Source: Candidatus Venteria ishoeyi (lineage in GTDB: Bacteria > Pseudomonadota > Gammaproteobacteria > Beggiatoales > Beggiatoaceae). Taken from it: a stretch of DNA of 64,000 bases. Within the stretch, counting starts at the first letter, position 1; each line of letters starts with the position of its first letter. Below are positions 31,818 through 43,240 of this stretch, piece by piece. The stretch spans positions 1 through 64,000 of the forward strand of contig NZ_JAUCGJ010000013.1 in the NCBI RefSeq assembly GCF_030378065.1. Reading direction: 5' to 3'. The position numbers and the translations under genes were made by a program. The notes beneath the pieces were generated by a model. The model saw nothing but the letters and a program-made list of their open reading frames with translations, had not been told where the DNA came from and made no database searches.

Positions 31818-34418
31818 ATGAATAAAATGCGATTAAATATTTGTTTCATACTGTTTGCTTGTTTCTGGGGGATTTCCCAATCAACTCAAGCAGCAACGGA
31901 TTGTAATGCTGCGACAGAAATTCCAGTTAGTGAATGTCAGGCTTTGTTAGCGTTTCACGCCAGCACAGGTGGTGAAAATTGGACAAATACTGCTACAAAT
32001 TCCTGGAATGTAACAAATACACCTTGTGGTTGGAAAGGGGTAACTTGTGATACTGGGCATGTAACAGAACTTGAATTAAAAGAAAATAATCTTGTAGGGA
32101 CGTTACCTGATGTTGCTTTGCCTGGTTTAACAGAGCTTTTTTTGGAAAAAAATCAGCTTAGTGGAACTATTCCAGACTTTAGTAATTTATCCCTATTGAA
32201 AAGACTTGTCTTGGGTTATAACCAATTAACCGGTTCGATTCCTGATTTTACCAATATACCTAATCTAACGACACTTGCTTTATATGGTAACCAGCTTAGT
32301 GGGCGTATTCCTGATTTCAATCATTTAACTAAAGTGGAAACGCTTGCTTTAGCAGAGAATCAATTGACTGGTTCAATTCCTGATTTTAGTAACTTGCCTA
32401 ACCTTAAAAGAGTTTTTTTAGATAAAAACCAGTTAACAGGGATTATACCCAATTTTAACAATTTACCTTTATTAGAGATACTTTCTTTACCAGAGAACCT
32501 GTTAAGTGGTTCTATTCCTGATTTTAGCAATCTACCTAGTCTTACAGAAATTGCTTTATGGGATAATAAATTGACAGGTAGCATTCCAGATTTTAGTGAA
32601 TTGCCAAATTTAGTGAGCTTGAATTTGTTTGGTAACCAGCTTACAGGAAGTATTCCTGACTTTAATAATTTGCCCATATTAGAAAACCTTGTTTTATCTG
32701 GAAGTACTAATAACCTGACAGGAATAACTCCAAATTTCAGTAAGTTACCTAAGTTAAAATTATTGTATTTAGGCGGAAACAGCTTAAGTGGTCCAATTCC
32801 AAATTTTAATAATACGCCAGAATTGGAAGCTCTTTCTTTAGGAGGTAACCAGCTTATCGGTTCTATTCCTAATTTTAGTGACTTACCTAATCTTATAACG
32901 CTTCATTTAGATAACAATCAATTAACTGGAAACATTTCTAATTTTAACTATATCTCTAATCTAACCGAGATTAATTTGAGTCATAATCAGCTATCTGGAA
33001 GTATTCCAGATTTTAATAATTTACCTGTATTAGAAACACTTTCATTGGCAGACAATCAGTTGACTGGTTCAATTCATGATTTCAGTAACTTGCCTAATCT
33101 TAACAAACTTTCTCTAAATGTTAATCAACTAACAGGAAATATTCCAAACTTTAACAATTTACCCATATTGACGGAACTTTATTTGTCAGGGAATCAGCTT
33201 AGTGGAAGTATTCCTGATTTTAGCAACTTACCTAAATTAACTTTCCTTGTCCTAGAAAGAAATAGGTTGTCTGGAACTATTCCAAATTTTACCAGCCTTC
33301 CTTTATTGGAATACCTTGTTTTAGGAAATAATCAGTTCAGTGGCACTATTCCTGATTTTACTAATCTGCCAAATTTGATAGACCTTTATTTAGGATTTAA
33401 CCAATTACAGGGTTCGATTCCAAATTTTAGTCAATTACCTAAACTGGATAGATTGAGTTTAGTAACTAACCAATTAAGTGGTGAAATCCACAATTTTAAT
33501 AATTTACCCTTACTAAAAGAGATTTATTTAAGTTTCAACCGATTGAATGGAAGTATTCCTAATTTCAATGGTCTACCTAACCTCACTCATCTGGTATTAA
33601 GGCATAACCAATTAACGGGAAGTGTTCCTAACTTTAACCTGACGCAATTAGAAGCACTCTTATTAGATGAAAATCAACTTAGTGGAACAATCCCTAATTT
33701 CACTGCTTTTAATTTACAAAGTTTAACGGAAGTTAATTTTTATCAAAATTGTCATCTTTCCGCATTTAATGATGCGCAGAGTGCCATTTTAAGTGAAAAA
33801 AATACCTTGCATCAATTTTTCGATGGATCGGGGACTGCTATACCTTTTCCTGTAGGAGCCAACTTTACAAGTGTCAGCAGTAAGTGTGGCAAGTCCCTTT
33901 TTGGCGTAACAACCAGCGCAATTGGTACAGGCAGTGGAAAAATAAGCGGCTACGGTAATTATGCGTCAGGTGATACCGTGACTTTAACCGCTACGCCGGA
34001 CATTGGCAGCAGTTTTGTTGGTTGGAGTCCCGCTTCTTGCGCAACGCCTTTTGCCTTGACAGGAAACACCGTTTGCACCGCTGAATTTGTGCGTATGCCA
34101 TCAGACCCGGCACAATGTACCATATTTAACGCCAACGCACCCAATCTCGAAATACCTTGTGTAGTCGTTAATAACACAGCTTACCGCGTTAATATGAATC
34201 TTGTGCCAACTGGTGCGTTACACTTTGAAGTGGATAATACCTCTTTAATACCAACAACAGTCACGCCAGCGGAACAGTGCGCAATTTATCCCTTTGCTGA
34301 GGAAAATCGTTTGCGCTTAAATTGCGTGGATGTTAATAGTGACAAGTTGTGGGTGGAAATGGCAATTGTACCAAATGCACCTGGGATTCAATTTGAAGTG
34401 GTGGATTATGGCTTATAA
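31818..34418 (+). CDS. Secreted leucine-rich-repeat protein
   Basis: 866 residues. Signal peptide (about 1-26, cleavage near TQAA). Cys-rich N-cap typical of plant-type LRRs (LLAFHASTGGENWTN, CGWKGVTCD). About 25 repeats of roughly 23 residues follow, with consensus LxxLxLxxNQLxGxIPDFxNLPx (residues about 85-625), then a cap with CHLSAF. Next is a bacterial beta-repeat module (SGKISGYGNYASGDTVTLTA ... FVGWSPASC), then two similar C-terminal modules (CTIFNANAPNLEIPCVVV and CAIYPFAEENRLRLNCVDV). It is exported and probably binds a protein or carbohydrate surface. AT-rich codon use unlike the neighbouring pet and ssp genes suggests horizontal acquisition. Confidence 0.88.
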   Translation: MNKMRLNICFILFACFWGISQSTQAATDCNAATEIPVSECQALLAFHASTGGENWTNTATNSWNVTNTPCGWKGVTCDTGHVTELELKENNLVGTLPDVALPGLTELFLEKNQLSGTIPDFSNLSLLKRLVLGYNQLTGSIPDFTNIPNLTTLALYGNQLSGRIPDFNHLTKVETLALAENQLTGSIPDFSNLPNLKRVFLDKNQLTGIIPNFNNLPLLEILSLPENLLSGSIPDFSNLPSLTEIALWDNKLTGSIPDFSELPNLVSLNLFGNQLTGSIPDFNNLPILENLVLSGSTNNLTGITPNFSKLPKLKLLYLGGNSLSGPIPNFNNTPELEALSLGGNQLIGSIPNFSDLPNLITLHLDNNQLTGNISNFNYISNLTEINLSHNQLSGSIPDFNNLPVLETLSLADNQLTGSIHDFSNLPNLNKLSLNVNQLTGNIPNFNNLPILTELYLSGNQLSGSIPDFSNLPKLTFLVLERNRLSGTIPNFTSLPLLEYLVLGNNQFSGTIPDFTNLPNLIDLYLGFNQLQGSIPNFSQLPKLDRLSLVTNQLSGEIHNFNNLPLLKEIYLSFNRLNGSIPNFNGLPNLTHLVLRHNQLTGSVPNFNLTQLEALLLDENQLSGTIPNFTAFNLQSLTEVNFYQNCHLSAFNDAQSAILSEKNTLHQFFDGSGTAIPFPVGANFTSVSSKCGKSLFGVTTSAIGTGSGKISGYGNYASGDTVTLTATPDIGSSFVGWSPASCATPFALTGNTVCTAEFVRMPSDPAQCTIFNANAPNLEIPCVVVNNTAYRVNMNLVPTGALHFEVDNTSLIPTTVTPAEQCAIYPFAEENRLRLNCVDVNSDKLWVEMAIVPNAPGIQFEVVDYGL

Positions 34419-36671: not shown

Positions 36672-37013
36672 TTAGTGTTTTAAGTTATCACTGTCTGGGT
36701 TTGTATCAAAATGATAATACTCCTGGCTTAACCAGGCGGCAGTATCATTAATTTCTGTATCAAACCAGCCCAGTCCCAGGTTTTGATTACATGCCTGCAC
36801 TTGGTTATCCAGTTTATTTTTATCCGTTACTTTGTGATCAGCACGGGTATAAATGGTTTTTTCATCACCAAACATAGAAATATGGCAGGCTTGACAATGT
36901 TTCTGATGTAAAACCTGACCATTTTTTGGGTTAATGTCATCAGCTGCCTGCACAGACAAGATCAGACAAAATGGCAGGCTACCGATCAAAGCAATAAATG
37001 ATAATTTATTCAT
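36672..37013 (-). CDS. Small periplasmic c-type cytochrome
   Basis: 113 residues. Signal peptide (about 1-23, ending VQAAD), then a single heme site C40-xx-C43-H44 (HCQACHISMFG). No clear methionine ligand follows in the expected place except in the SMFG motif region, and the C-terminus (YYHFDTNPDSDNLKH) carries histidines that could ligate the iron. It is a class I-like mini cytochrome, electron carrier in the periplasm, partner unknown. It is 19 bases downstream of the M48 protease gene, probably in one transcript. Confidence 0.8.
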   Translation of the reverse strand: MNKLSFIALIGSLPFCLILSVQAADDINPKNGQVLHQKHCQACHISMFGDEKTIYTRADHKVTDKNKLDNQVQACNQNLGLGWFDTEINDTAAWLSQEYYHFDTNPDSDNLKH

Positions 37014-38467: not shown

Positions 38468-38920
38468 TTAGTCAATAAAAAACTCTTGTTTGAACTTGAT
38501 TTCATGGGTCTTGCCCTGGTGTTCGGCATCAACATCCACTTTAAAATTCAAAGTTTCGGCATTATCGATCCGGACTTCACCAATGTAATAAATGGCCTCG
38601 CCTTCACGCACTTCTTTTATTTTAATGTTTTGTAATTGCCCATTAAGATTAGTGGCAGTTGCACTGACCTTAGCTGCAACCGCATGATCTTGTGGATTTT
38701 TAGCGGAGCCTTTTTTACGCACGGAAATATTCAGCAATCCCCGGTGTTTGCTGCGACTCAGCTTATACTGTTTCGCAACATCCGTAGTCAGAATACTGGT
38801 GTTGATCGCATTATAATGAATGACATAATCGCCAACTGTTGTAAACTGTGCTGCGGATAGCGATAAACTCAGTACCCCCAGAAACAGACCGACTAAAGCA
38901 CTAAAATGGAACTTTTTCAT
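38468..38920 (-). CDS. Periplasmic DUF4426 protein
   Basis: 150 residues. Signal peptide (about 1-24), mature part of beta-strands matching DUF4426: VGDYVIHYNAINTSILTTDVAKQYKLSRSKHRGLLNISV, then IKIKEVREGEAIYYIGEV and a FKQEFF C-terminus. DUF4426 proteins are small, gammaproteobacterial, periplasmic and functionally uncharacterised. A strong terminator ends the gene, so it is monocistronic. Confidence 0.85.
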   Translation of the reverse strand: MKKFHFSALVGLFLGVLSLSLSAAQFTTVGDYVIHYNAINTSILTTDVAKQYKLSRSKHRGLLNISVRKKGSAKNPQDHAVAAKVSATATNLNGQLQNIKIKEVREGEAIYYIGEVRIDNAETLNFKVDVDAEHQGKTHEIKFKQEFFID

Positions 38921-39138: not shown

Positions 39139-40077
39139 ATGAACATAGACTGGCAACAATATGCAAGCCAATACCGCATTTTTTTAAACCGTTTGCAGCA
39201 GATTCAACGCTTTGCTCATCCCGCACTCGCTTACCCACTGGCTGCGCGCATTGCGCATCATTACAGTCCTAATAAGGAGATGCAGGCAAATATCTGTCAA
39301 TCTTTTGCGCAGGCTGCAAATAAACCGGAAATACCGCTTAAAAAATTCTGGTCACATTATCTGAATCATGTGGGCGCGACAGACTTAAATACCTTTATGT
39401 ATCGGAAAATGACACCACAATGGATAAAACAGCGCGTAAAAATTAACAGCCCGGTTACTCTGGAAAGTTTGAGAAAACATGACAGAGGCTTATTTGTGAT
39501 GACTTATCATAATCACTATCCCCATTTTCTGGGCGTGGTACTGGGACAAATGGGGCTTGAGGCAGGCTTAAAAAGCCATTTGATTGCTATGGATATTACA
39601 GCCAGTCCTTTGTATGATTATTTGCGCGAAGAAGCTGAGGCTTATTATCGTGATTGTGAAAACTGTTTTGCCGGTGGTCAGTATTTGTATATGCATCAAA
39701 ATCAACCAATAGCCGCCATGCGTAAATTACATCAAGCTTTGCGCAATGGTGAAACAGTGATCAGCTTAAATGATTTTCCCAGCCCATTTATTTCCAAGCG
39801 CAATTTGGAACTATCAGTTTTTGGGTATCAATACGCCTTTCCGGTGGGTACGCTGGAAATTGCACTGCGTCAGAAAACCCCGGTTGTTGCGGCCTGGATA
39901 CGCTGGTTGGGTTGGGATCGATTTTGTCTTGAAGTGCGCCCATTAGCTACGGAAAATGGTTTGGAAAATGTAATGGCACAATATCTGGAAATTCTGCAAT
40001 CACAACTGGTAGTTGCTGACCCCGCCTTGTGGGAAGGCTGGAAATGGCTGACACCTGAAATGAAAGTGAGCTTATGA
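39139..40077 (+). CDS. LpxL-like acyltransferase family protein
   Basis: 312 residues, apparently soluble or peripheral. It resembles the lauroyl/myristoyl acyltransferase (LABLAT, PF03279) group: an N-terminal amphipathic region, then the acyltransferase core with FVMTYHNHYPHFLG (the usual HxGxxE block is altered: HNHYPH here), LKSHLIAMD, ISLNDFPSPF and PVGTLEIALRQKTPVVAAWIR. Either it transfers acyl groups to lipid A or another acceptor, or the fold has been reused. The stop overlaps the start of a radical SAM gene by 4 bases, an unusual partner for such an enzyme. Confidence 0.7.
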   Translation: MNIDWQQYASQYRIFLNRLQQIQRFAHPALAYPLAARIAHHYSPNKEMQANICQSFAQAANKPEIPLKKFWSHYLNHVGATDLNTFMYRKMTPQWIKQRVKINSPVTLESLRKHDRGLFVMTYHNHYPHFLGVVLGQMGLEAGLKSHLIAMDITASPLYDYLREEAEAYYRDCENCFAGGQYLYMHQNQPIAAMRKLHQALRNGETVISLNDFPSPFISKRNLELSVFGYQYAFPVGTLEIALRQKTPVVAAWIRWLGWDRFCLEVRPLATENGLENVMAQYLEILQSQLVVADPALWEGWKWLTPEMKVSL

Positions 40078-41063
40078 ACCTAACACCAATTAAATATCTA
40101 CAAGTTGAAACCACAACCACCTGCAATCAACGTTGCCAGTTTTGTCCGGTTTCTACCAGCCACCGACCTAAAGCCAGTTTATCCCTACACGATCTTGAGC
40201 ATATTTTAGAAGACTTAAAAGATCAGCCTTTAGAAGCGGCTTGGATCAATGGCTTTAATGAACCCACCTATGACCGTCATCTGGTGGAAAAAGTACAGCG
40301 TTTACATGCAGCAGGTATTGATATTCGTTTAAACAGCAATGCCTCAGGCTTAAATCCAAAATTGATTCAACAATTGCTGGCTGCGGGTGTGCGCAGTTTT
40401 ACCATTAATATTTCAAGCATTGATCCACAACGCTATAAAGAAGTACGAGGCAGCAGCAATGTCGAACAAGTCATTACTCATGTAGAAGCCTTATTAGAAC
40501 AGGCGCAACAGCAAGGCAATGTGGAAGTGGTGCTGCTGGTTTTAGGCCAGTTGGATAAACAGCATGCCAAGGATATTCAAGCAATTACCCAACATTTTTC
40601 TGATACGGCACAAGTATCCATTTGCCCGGTGGCTGATTTTGCCGCAGGAGCCACTGACATGCTGAAACTACAGATTCACCATAAAAAATTGCATGGTTGT
40701 AGCGGCTTGCGTCACGTGCAATGGCTGCATGTCACGCCATCAGGGCAAGCCATCTTATGTTGCCAGGATTATGCTGAAAACTATGTGGTGGGTAATATTC
40801 ACAAGCAAACACCCACTGAAATTTTACACAGTGAAAAGTTTGCACAGTTGCGGCGTTGGGTAGAAGGTGAAGAAGACGCGCCAGAAGATTTTATCTGCCG
40901 CAGCTGCGTGTTTGCAGTGGGAGAAGAACCTTATCAGGAAAAAATGCAGTTTTATTTTTGCAGCCAGTGTTTATTGCCTGAACAGTTGGGTTTTGAAAAA
41001 AGTTGTGGACACTGCGTGTTACAAGCCTATCACCCCAGCCTGAAAAGCCATTTAAAATCATAA
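40074..41063 (+). CDS. Radical SAM/SPASM domain protein
   Basis: 329 residues. Radical SAM cluster C17-xxx-C21-xx-C24 (CNQRCQFC) with NGFNEPTYD (the GGxEP-equivalent) and a barrel (about 5-190). The SPASM region follows with GQAILCCQDYAENYVVGNI and CRSCVF, and a further Cys-rich tail (FYFCSQC, KSCGHCVL) that may bind another cluster. SPASM enzymes modify peptides (RiPPs, quinone-like cofactors) or other substrates. No precursor peptide gene is visible nearby. Coupling to an acyltransferase hints at a modified lipid or acylated product. Confidence 0.85.
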   Translation: MNLTPIKYLQVETTTTCNQRCQFCPVSTSHRPKASLSLHDLEHILEDLKDQPLEAAWINGFNEPTYDRHLVEKVQRLHAAGIDIRLNSNASGLNPKLIQQLLAAGVRSFTINISSIDPQRYKEVRGSSNVEQVITHVEALLEQAQQQGNVEVVLLVLGQLDKQHAKDIQAITQHFSDTAQVSICPVADFAAGATDMLKLQIHHKKLHGCSGLRHVQWLHVTPSGQAILCCQDYAENYVVGNIHKQTPTEILHSEKFAQLRRWVEGEEDAPEDFICRSCVFAVGEEPYQEKMQFYFCSQCLLPEQLGFEKSCGHCVLQAYHPSLKSHLKS

Positions 41064-41214: not shown

Positions 41215-41886
41215 TTATCTGGAATAACTCCTGCCTTTTTCTTTTGAAATCTGACGTTTTTTAACCGCTTTATAACGTTGCAGGTAGACATCATATTCTG
41301 CGGTGATGTTTTTTGTATCCTGTTCTTTATCTTTAATTGAATTTTCAATTACTTTAATTTGCGCTTCCAGATTTTTAGAATGTTTAGCCAGACGTTCCCT
41401 GTCTGTTTTGGAGGAGGCATCACTGCGCGTTGCTAATTGTTTTTCCAGTTTCCGCTGATTTTTAAGTGTATTCTGGTAAGATTTTAATTGCCCCTTGGTT
41501 ATACGAATACCTTGTTCAATACGCATTAACTGACTATCACGCGCCAGGATAATATCGTTTTCTGTTGGATATAAATCCAGTAGGCGGCGATCTTCTTCAG
41601 CCTGTCTTTTATCTTTTTTCTCCTGCTCAAAGCGCTGTTGTTCTGCCTCTATCAGTGCTTTGATTTCTGCTTCGGTTTTATCGCGCTGGATAACTTCAAC
41701 AACGTCCCCGCTATCATTTCGGATTTCATGTTTTTCTTTCACATATTGCTGAGGAATGACATTACCACATTCCATAATACCGTCTTCATTGGTCCAGCAT
41801 TTGATATCTTCTGCAAAGACAGTAGTGGTATTAAATAAACAGGCCACGCTTAAAATCAGTTGTCCCAGATGTGTTCTTTTATTCAT
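41215..41886 (-). CDS. Secreted coiled-coil protein (DUF4124-like N-terminus)
   Basis: 223 residues. Signal peptide (about 1-25, ending VFAED); the mature start IKCWTNEDGIMECGNVIP with two cysteines recalls the DUF4124 domain. The remainder (about 60-223) is a long highly charged coiled coil (EAEQQRFEQEKKDKRQAEEDRR ... IKDKEQDTKNITAEYDVYLQ). It starts one base after the glmM stop, so the two are probably cotranscribed, although no functional link is obvious. Confidence 0.75.
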   Translation of the reverse strand: MNKRTHLGQLILSVACLFNTTTVFAEDIKCWTNEDGIMECGNVIPQQYVKEKHEIRNDSGDVVEVIQRDKTEAEIKALIEAEQQRFEQEKKDKRQAEEDRRLLDLYPTENDIILARDSQLMRIEQGIRITKGQLKSYQNTLKNQRKLEKQLATRSDASSKTDRERLAKHSKNLEAQIKVIENSIKDKEQDTKNITAEYDVYLQRYKAVKKRQISKEKGRSYSR

Positions 41887-41887
41887 T

Positions 41888-43240
41888 TTAGTTTTCCTTG
41901 ACTAAAGCGTGTACCGTATCAGCAATTGATGTGGCTAATGTTTTTACCTGTGTAATATCACGGCCTTCCACCATCACCCGAATCAAGGGTTCGGTACCAG
42001 AGGGGCGCAATAAAACGCGGCCTTGTCCGGCAAGTTCAGTTTCTGCTGCTGCGACTGCCTTGCGTACAGCATCGGTATTGAGTACCTCTTGTTTTTGTGG
42101 CAAGGCAACATTAATTAACTGTTGGGGGCATTTTTCCATGCCCATGCACAGTTCCTGTAAAGTTTTTGCACCTTGCACCATAATTGCTAATACCTGCAAA
42201 GCCGTGATAATGCCATCACCTGTTGTCGTATGATTCAGGCAGATAATGTGCCCGGAAGACTCACCACCTAACAGACCCTGATGCTTTCTTAATAATTCAA
42301 TGACATAACGATCCCCGACTTTAGCGCGTAAAAAAGGGATGTTGAGTTCTTTAAACGCTTGTTCCAGGCCAAAATTACTCATCAAGGTACCCACCACCGG
42401 GCCACTTAATTTTCCTGATTGTTGTCTGGCTTTAGCAATAATAAACAGAATTTCATCACCATCGACTTCCCGCCCCTGGCTGTCTACCATCATCAGGCGG
42501 TCACCATCACCATCCAGAGCAATACCTAAATCTGCCTGGTGCTCTTGCACCGCAGCTTGCAAGGTTTCGGTATGCGTTGCACCGCAACCCTGGTTAATAT
42601 TCAGGCCATCAGGTTGTGCGCCGATGCGGATGACTTCAGCACCGAGTTCCAGAAAGACATTTGGCGCAATATGATAAGTTGCGCCATGCGCGCAATCGAC
42701 CACCAGTTTTAAGCCAGTAAGACTGAGGTGGGTGGAAATACTGCTTTTACAAAACTCAATATAACGCCCTGCGGCATCGTCAATGCGTTTGGCCTTACCC
42801 AACTCTTTAGCAGCCACGGTGGTCATGGGTTTATCCATTTCCGCTTCAATTGCGAGTTCAACCTCATCGGGCAGTTTAAAACCCTCATGGGAGAAGAACT
42901 TGATGCCATTATCCTGAAACGGGTTATGCGAGGCACTGACTACAATGCCAGCACTGGCGTGGAAAGTACGGGTCAGATAAGCAATGCCCGGGGTTGGCAT
43001 AGGGCCAAGCAAACGCACATGCATACCCGCCGCCGATAGCCCTGCCTCCAGGGCAGACTCCAGCATATAACCGGAAATCCGGGTATCTTTACCAATTAAA
43101 ACGCGGCGGCGATGTTGTTTATTACCCAACACCCGACCGGCTGCCCAGCCCAATTTGAGGACAAAATCAGGGGTAATGGGATAATCCCCCACTTTGCCAC
43201 GGATGCCGTCGGTGCCAAAATACTTACGTTGTTGTGTCAT
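41888..43240 (-). CDS. glmM: Phosphoglucosamine mutase
   Basis: 450 residues, the usual length. Phosphoserine loop SASHNP (S104), metal-binding [11 protein letters not shown], sugar-binding GGESSGH and phosphate loop [15 protein letters not shown] are all present. It converts glucosamine-6-phosphate to glucosamine-1-phosphate for UDP-GlcNAc synthesis (peptidoglycan, LPS). It starts 9 bases after the stop of a hybrid kinase gene; glmM is more usually found with folP or ftsH. Confidence 0.97.

Follow-up and report, generated by a model that had tools for sequence, protein, structure and literature searches.

A stretch of 64,000 nucleotides of Candidatus Venteria ishoeyi DNA, referred to here as the window, contains two overlapping genes that encode an LpxL-like acyltransferase (AT) and a radical SAM enzyme (rSAM). 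Do the two proteins work together and, if so, on what substrate?

The locus

The two genes and those flanking them are arranged as follows.

38468-38920, - strand: DUF4426 gene, flanking the pair
39139..40077, + strand: AT gene, 312 aa; LpxL/PatA-type fold, assigned from a PF03279 match, a structure model and Foldseek
40074..40077, + strand: overlap of the AT and rSAM genes, 4 nt, ATGA
40074..41063, + strand: rSAM gene, 329 aa; PF04055 and PF13186, with a twitch-type auxiliary domain
41215-41886, - strand: open reading frame without assigned function, flanking the pair
41888-43240, - strand: GlmM gene, flanking the pair beyond the preceding frame

Because the genes on either side are on the opposite strand, AT and rSAM form an isolated pair, and both the isolation and the four-base overlap are as described in the first-pass annotation. 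Within the window neither gene adjoins a glycan gene, and the window has no Wzm or Wzt gene; the Wzt gene of this genome is on a different contig (C64). A canonical LpxL (L001, 3.4e-78) and a second PF03279 protein (L002) are encoded elsewhere in the genome, so that the AT of the window is an extra, divergent copy.

Two other reading frames of the window have distinctive features. The product of the one at 31818-34418 is large, looks secreted and contains numerous repeats of the LRR type (L.G.IPDF.NLP.L). The frame at 36672-37013 encodes a short secreted protein that has one haem-binding motif, CQACH, is weakly cytochrome-c-like and adjoins an M48-type protease gene.

Recurrence of the pair

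Co-occurrence was analysed in a sample of 43 genomes of the same bacterial family. The scan for AT was run with a five-row alignment, an eight-row alignment being too diverse. Close AT relatives were found in 8 of the 43 genomes and close rSAM relatives in 9; four genomes (G000, G014, G031 and G405) have both. This co-occurrence is weak (Fisher p = 0.046, with no correction for phylogeny, and G014 and G031 belong to one genus). An rSAM orthologue without a close AT was found in five genomes, one of which (G025) has only a distant AT. The named AT matches come from Parabeggiatoa, a Thiomargarita sp., a Thiotrichales MAG, Albibeggiatoa and one other gammaproteobacterial MAG. Since class-wide and phylum-wide samples contained few relatives of either protein, the close AT and rSAM families look mainly confined to the bacterial family of the host. 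When viral contigs were searched with both proteins, no relative was found.

Absence of the pair as a unit elsewhere would have counted against the first-pass annotation. This is not the case. In Candidatus Parabeggiatoa sp. nov. 3 (G405, L075) the rSAM gene comes after AT in the same orientation, 340 bp away, in surroundings that are otherwise unlike those in the window. On the Methyloprofundus plasmid AP023241.1 an operon of overlapping genes encodes, in this order, Wzm, Wzt, AT, a radical SAM protein and a GNAT protein; the overlap of AT with the radical SAM gene is 8 nt long. This AT is related to that of the window. The radical SAM protein is twitch-like and is not orthologous to the rSAM of the window; the alignment of the two covers 242 columns, reaching the twitch region and including a CC pair there. 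The AT–rSAM pair is real, recurrent and rare.

The 340-bp gap in Parabeggiatoa contains inverted repeats (L075:3345-3531) whose 50-nt arms are 74% complementary and enclose a perfect 20-nt hairpin. This structure resembles a small inserted element.

The main rival to the glycan-tailoring role proposed below is chance neighbourhood, in which AT would act on lipid A or another glycolipid while rSAM would serve an unrelated process, for instance the maturation of a cofactor or metalloenzyme. We consider this somewhat unlikely. It would fit G014 and G031, where AT and rSAM are unlinked and on different contigs, and the occurrence of either gene without the other in some genomes. The best NCBIfam matches of rSAM, a tungsten-oxidoreductase maturase and MoaA, are also in its favour, at scores far under their cut-offs, as is a ccmA-like gene, recognized by eye, that follows the rSAM orthologue of G031. 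However, the adjacency is found again in Parabeggiatoa in different surroundings, and in Methyloprofundus AT overlaps with a radical SAM gene that is not an orthologue. By our estimate, two genes among about 4,000 in a genome are unlikely to become neighbours with identical order and strand by chance. The coupling suggested from the window is upheld as more than chance, in that adjacency recurs, but it is not obligatory.

The acyltransferase

Two elements of the AT gene bear on catalysis.

39508..39525, + strand: HNHYPH block with the putative catalytic histidine H124; codons 124-129, context TYHNHYPH
39772..39774, + strand: codon of D212, the proposed relay acid, putatively equivalent by alignment to E200 of PatA (PatA dyad from PMC4792965)

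AT matches Pfam PF03279 (Lip_A_acyltrans) with 25.4 bits, just above the cut-off of 22.3, and the match is limited to the C-terminal half; 9 of 11 AT relatives match the same family at E <= 0.01. No NCBIfam equivalog model fits either AT or rSAM. The AF2 model of AT has a mean pLDDT of 89.3. In a Foldseek comparison of this model with the PDB the best E-value was obtained for LpxM (5KNK, 3.5e-9) and PatA gave a target-normalised TM of up to 0.78, with no credible match beyond these two proteins. PatA is also matched on sequence by the AT alignment profile (E 2e-5, a weak full-profile match). The PatA block-1 histidine aligns with the HNHYPH block of AT, and the listed part of the PatA alignment ends before the E200 region.

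The HX4(D/E) motif of LpxL and LpxM is replaced in AT by H124-NHYP-H129, and none of the 11 AT relatives has Asp or Glu at position +5 from the block-1 histidine. This absence would be explained if AT were catalytically dead or altered in its chemistry, serving for example as a glycan-binding or scaffold protein, which is quite improbable. When the AT relatives were aligned with three ordinary PF03279 proteins, the sole invariant columns were H124 and D212, which would correspond to the relay residues of LpxL and PatA (block-1 His and block-3 Asp/Glu). The catalytic relay of PatA consists of H126 and E200, both of them essential, whereas the aspartate of HX4D (D131) is structural, the D131A mutant retaining 37% activity (PMC4792965). 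A block-3 acid serves in HtrB and MsbB too, as inferred by the authors of the PatA study (PMC4792965). Judging from the alignment, H124 and D212 of AT very probably match the H126–E200 relay of PatA, and D212, rather than the residue at +5, is the likely relay partner of H124. Given the conservation of H124 and D212 and the position of D212 in the region of the PatA block-3 acid, AT is probably an active acyltransferase, and a dead enzyme was set aside. The block had been described as altered, which is correct in that the +5 acid is missing throughout the group, but it does not follow that the enzyme is dead or a different one.

The radical SAM enzyme

Two cysteine-containing regions of the rSAM gene lie beyond the SAM-cluster motif.

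40698..40910, + strand: putative auxiliary cluster region with a twitch pattern; C209, C229 (C230), C275, C278
40959..41015, + strand: tail CX2C-X11-CX2C; C296-X2-C299-X11-C311-X2-C314, invariant in 7 orthologues

rSAM matches PF04055 with 68.7 bits, the radical SAM domain beginning at residue 11. The motif C17-X3-C21-X2-C24 (CX3CX2C) is invariant among orthologues, and its three cysteines are predicted to hold the SAM cluster. The auxiliary cysteines, C209-X14-G-X4-C229 followed by C275-X2-C278, are invariant in 7 orthologues. The seven-cysteine SPASM motif has the form CX9-15GX4C–gap–CX2CX5CX3C–gap–C (PMC6231123). Compared with it, rSAM has the first half and the CX2C, and CX5CX3C is missing, leaving four cysteines that would be able to ligate one auxiliary cluster. 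By cysteine count, the auxiliary domain is a BtrN-like four-cysteine twitch, not the SPASM region named in the first-pass annotation. The Cys-rich tail reported together with it is conserved, and could be a zinc site or hold a second cluster.

BtrN, a dehydrogenase of a sugar alcohol, is the closest solved relative of rSAM by both sequence and fold, at an identity under 20%. The structure model of rSAM is weaker than that of AT, with a mean pLDDT of 67 and values below 50 in the tail. Equivalog assignments as the tungsten-oxidoreductase maturase, MoaA, mycofactocin, PqqE or NirJ2 were rejected, as all scores were far under the cut-offs. The function of SPASM and twitch enzymes is hard to predict from sequence (PMC6231123).

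A lipopeptide or RiPP system, in which a small peptide would be modified by the radical enzyme and then lipidated by AT, is very improbable: although SPASM and twitch enzymes are common in peptide maturation (PMC6231123, PMC9012708) and the peptide maturases SkfB, CteB and SuiB are among the Foldseek matches of the rSAM model, Pfam shows neither an RRE-like N-terminal domain in rSAM nor an extension ahead of the radical SAM domain, no peptidase or peptide-exporter gene was noticed beside rSAM, and the nine loci compared share no conserved small ORF within 2.5 kb of the rSAM gene, in agreement with the earlier remark that no precursor peptide is visible next to the pair. The lack of a recognition domain and of a conserved small ORF makes a peptide substrate unlikely.

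Association of relatives with glycan export

Relatives of AT are found in loci for polysaccharide export. An AT relative shares its locus with both Wzm and Wzt in L010 and L111; only Wzt accompanies it in L013, L015 and L016. In the last three, all from members of the family, the AT homologue adjoins a Wzt that has a C-terminal carbohydrate-binding domain. In G330 (L111) AT is situated between Wzm and Wzt with a 4-nt overlap on each side, and genes for glycosyltransferases and sugar transferases precede this stretch. Three genomes of one genus have a distant AT that overlaps or is adjacent to genes for glycosyltransferases or methyltransferases, and another distant AT follows a sulfotransferase gene. 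Of the 8 genomes with AT, 6 also encode an orthologue of a methyltransferase–GNAT (MT–GNAT) fusion (Fisher p = 3e-4), an association with AT that is stronger than that of rSAM among the 43 family genomes.

Genes for MT–GNAT fusions are located at L016:5699-7465, L013:10927-12693 and G000:C54:17284-18609, and they adjoin Wzt in several family genomes. To our knowledge, these fusions are an undescribed part of Wzt glycan-export loci. At L013:3130-6930 there are also four tandem genes for proteins of about 310 aa with an identical N-terminus (MPNSPRKLISFDWAIKKILRSK…), which are apparently recent duplications.

Sugar-related genes also accompany rSAM. In G025 (contig C33, L066:7690-10725) the rSAM orthologue forms the C-terminal part of a single-frame, 1011-aa GT4–GT2–rSAM fusion, and in G014 it follows a polysaccharide deacetylase gene. 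The orthologues in L064, L065 and L110 have no adjoining glycan gene, and the neighbours of other orthologues are unrelated.

Proposed role

We propose that AT and rSAM act in the cytoplasm or at the inner membrane to tailor a surface glycan or glycolipid that leaves the cell through a Wzm/Wzt-type ABC transporter, and give this reading about an even chance. Its basis is the gene pair itself and its recurrence, the folds and motifs of the two proteins, and the placing of relatives in loci for polysaccharide export. From these we infer the substrate, the reactions, the order in which they occur and a connection with export in the host of the pair, where Wzt is encoded elsewhere in the genome.

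An exported glycan or glycolipid is suggested as the substrate by the contexts of AT and rSAM genes in relatives. Of the acylated, radical-modified lipid or peptide envisaged in the first-pass annotation, the peptide is without support. The glycan or glycolipid would be completed inside the cell in a lipid-linked form and then exported by an O-antigen-type ABC transporter (Wzm/Wzt). rSAM would abstract hydrogen from one of the sugars in the lipid-linked glycan, leading to oxidation or rearrangement, comparable to the action of BtrN on an aminocyclitol. A sugar substrate is supported by the activity of BtrN, the best solved relative, on a carbocyclic sugar, the match being distant. AT would add an acyl chain to a sugar hydroxyl via its His–Asp relay, comparable to the action of PatA on mannose O6; here a sugar-lipid substrate is supported by the closest solved folds, LpxM and PatA, both of which acylate sugar lipids. 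The modified product might then be a recognition target of the Wzt C-terminal domain ahead of export.

ABC-exported O antigens often require a modified end that is read by Wzt, and the caps named for ABC-exported glycans comprise methyl, (methyl)phosphate and additional sugars, for example Kdo (PMC9445017). In giant sulfur bacteria and Methyloprofundus a radical-SAM-modified, fatty-acylated sugar might be the terminal mark or lipid anchor of the exported glycan, in which case Wzt would read an acyl cap and not methyl, phosphate or Kdo; this is speculative and we consider it improbable. We know of no described cap that is the product of an LpxL-type acyltransferase or of a radical SAM enzyme.

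Literature searches gave no description of the combination of AT and rSAM, in line with the initial impression that no described pathway uses exactly this pair. Both enzymes are variants of known families, and their combination appears to be undescribed in searchable papers. An acyltransferase encoded with Wzm/Wzt and a radical enzyme would, if the proposal is true, indicate a new kind of glycan tailoring. It would also offer genes through which to approach the envelope of large sulfur bacteria, organisms that are difficult to grow.

Relation to known systems

PatA (phosphatidylinositol mannoside acyltransferase; PDB 5F2T, 5OCE; PMC4792965) has the fold, the block-1 histidine and the block-3 acid in common with AT. 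However, the identity between the two is about 15%, AT does not have the acid of HX4D, and its relatives are found in ABC-glycan contexts and not with PIM genes. LpxL and LpxM (HtrB and MsbB, the lipid A secondary acyltransferases, PF03279), whose acceptor is Kdo2-lipid IVA, share with AT the Pfam family and the H and D residues, and the top Foldseek E-value belongs to this group. AT differs from them in lacking HX4E, and its genome has a separate canonical LpxL.

BtrN (2-deoxy-scyllo-inosamine dehydrogenase; PDB 4M7T) has, like rSAM, a twitch domain with four cysteines for one auxiliary cluster, whereas the additional CX2C-X11-CX2C tail belongs to rSAM, and the identity is under 20%. In the window Wzm and Wzt are not adjacent to the pair, in contrast to the ABC-dependent O-antigen systems with terminal capping (Wzm/Wzt with a C-terminal CBD; PMC9445017), to which AT is connected through its relatives in Wzm–Wzt loci with MT–GNAT proteins.
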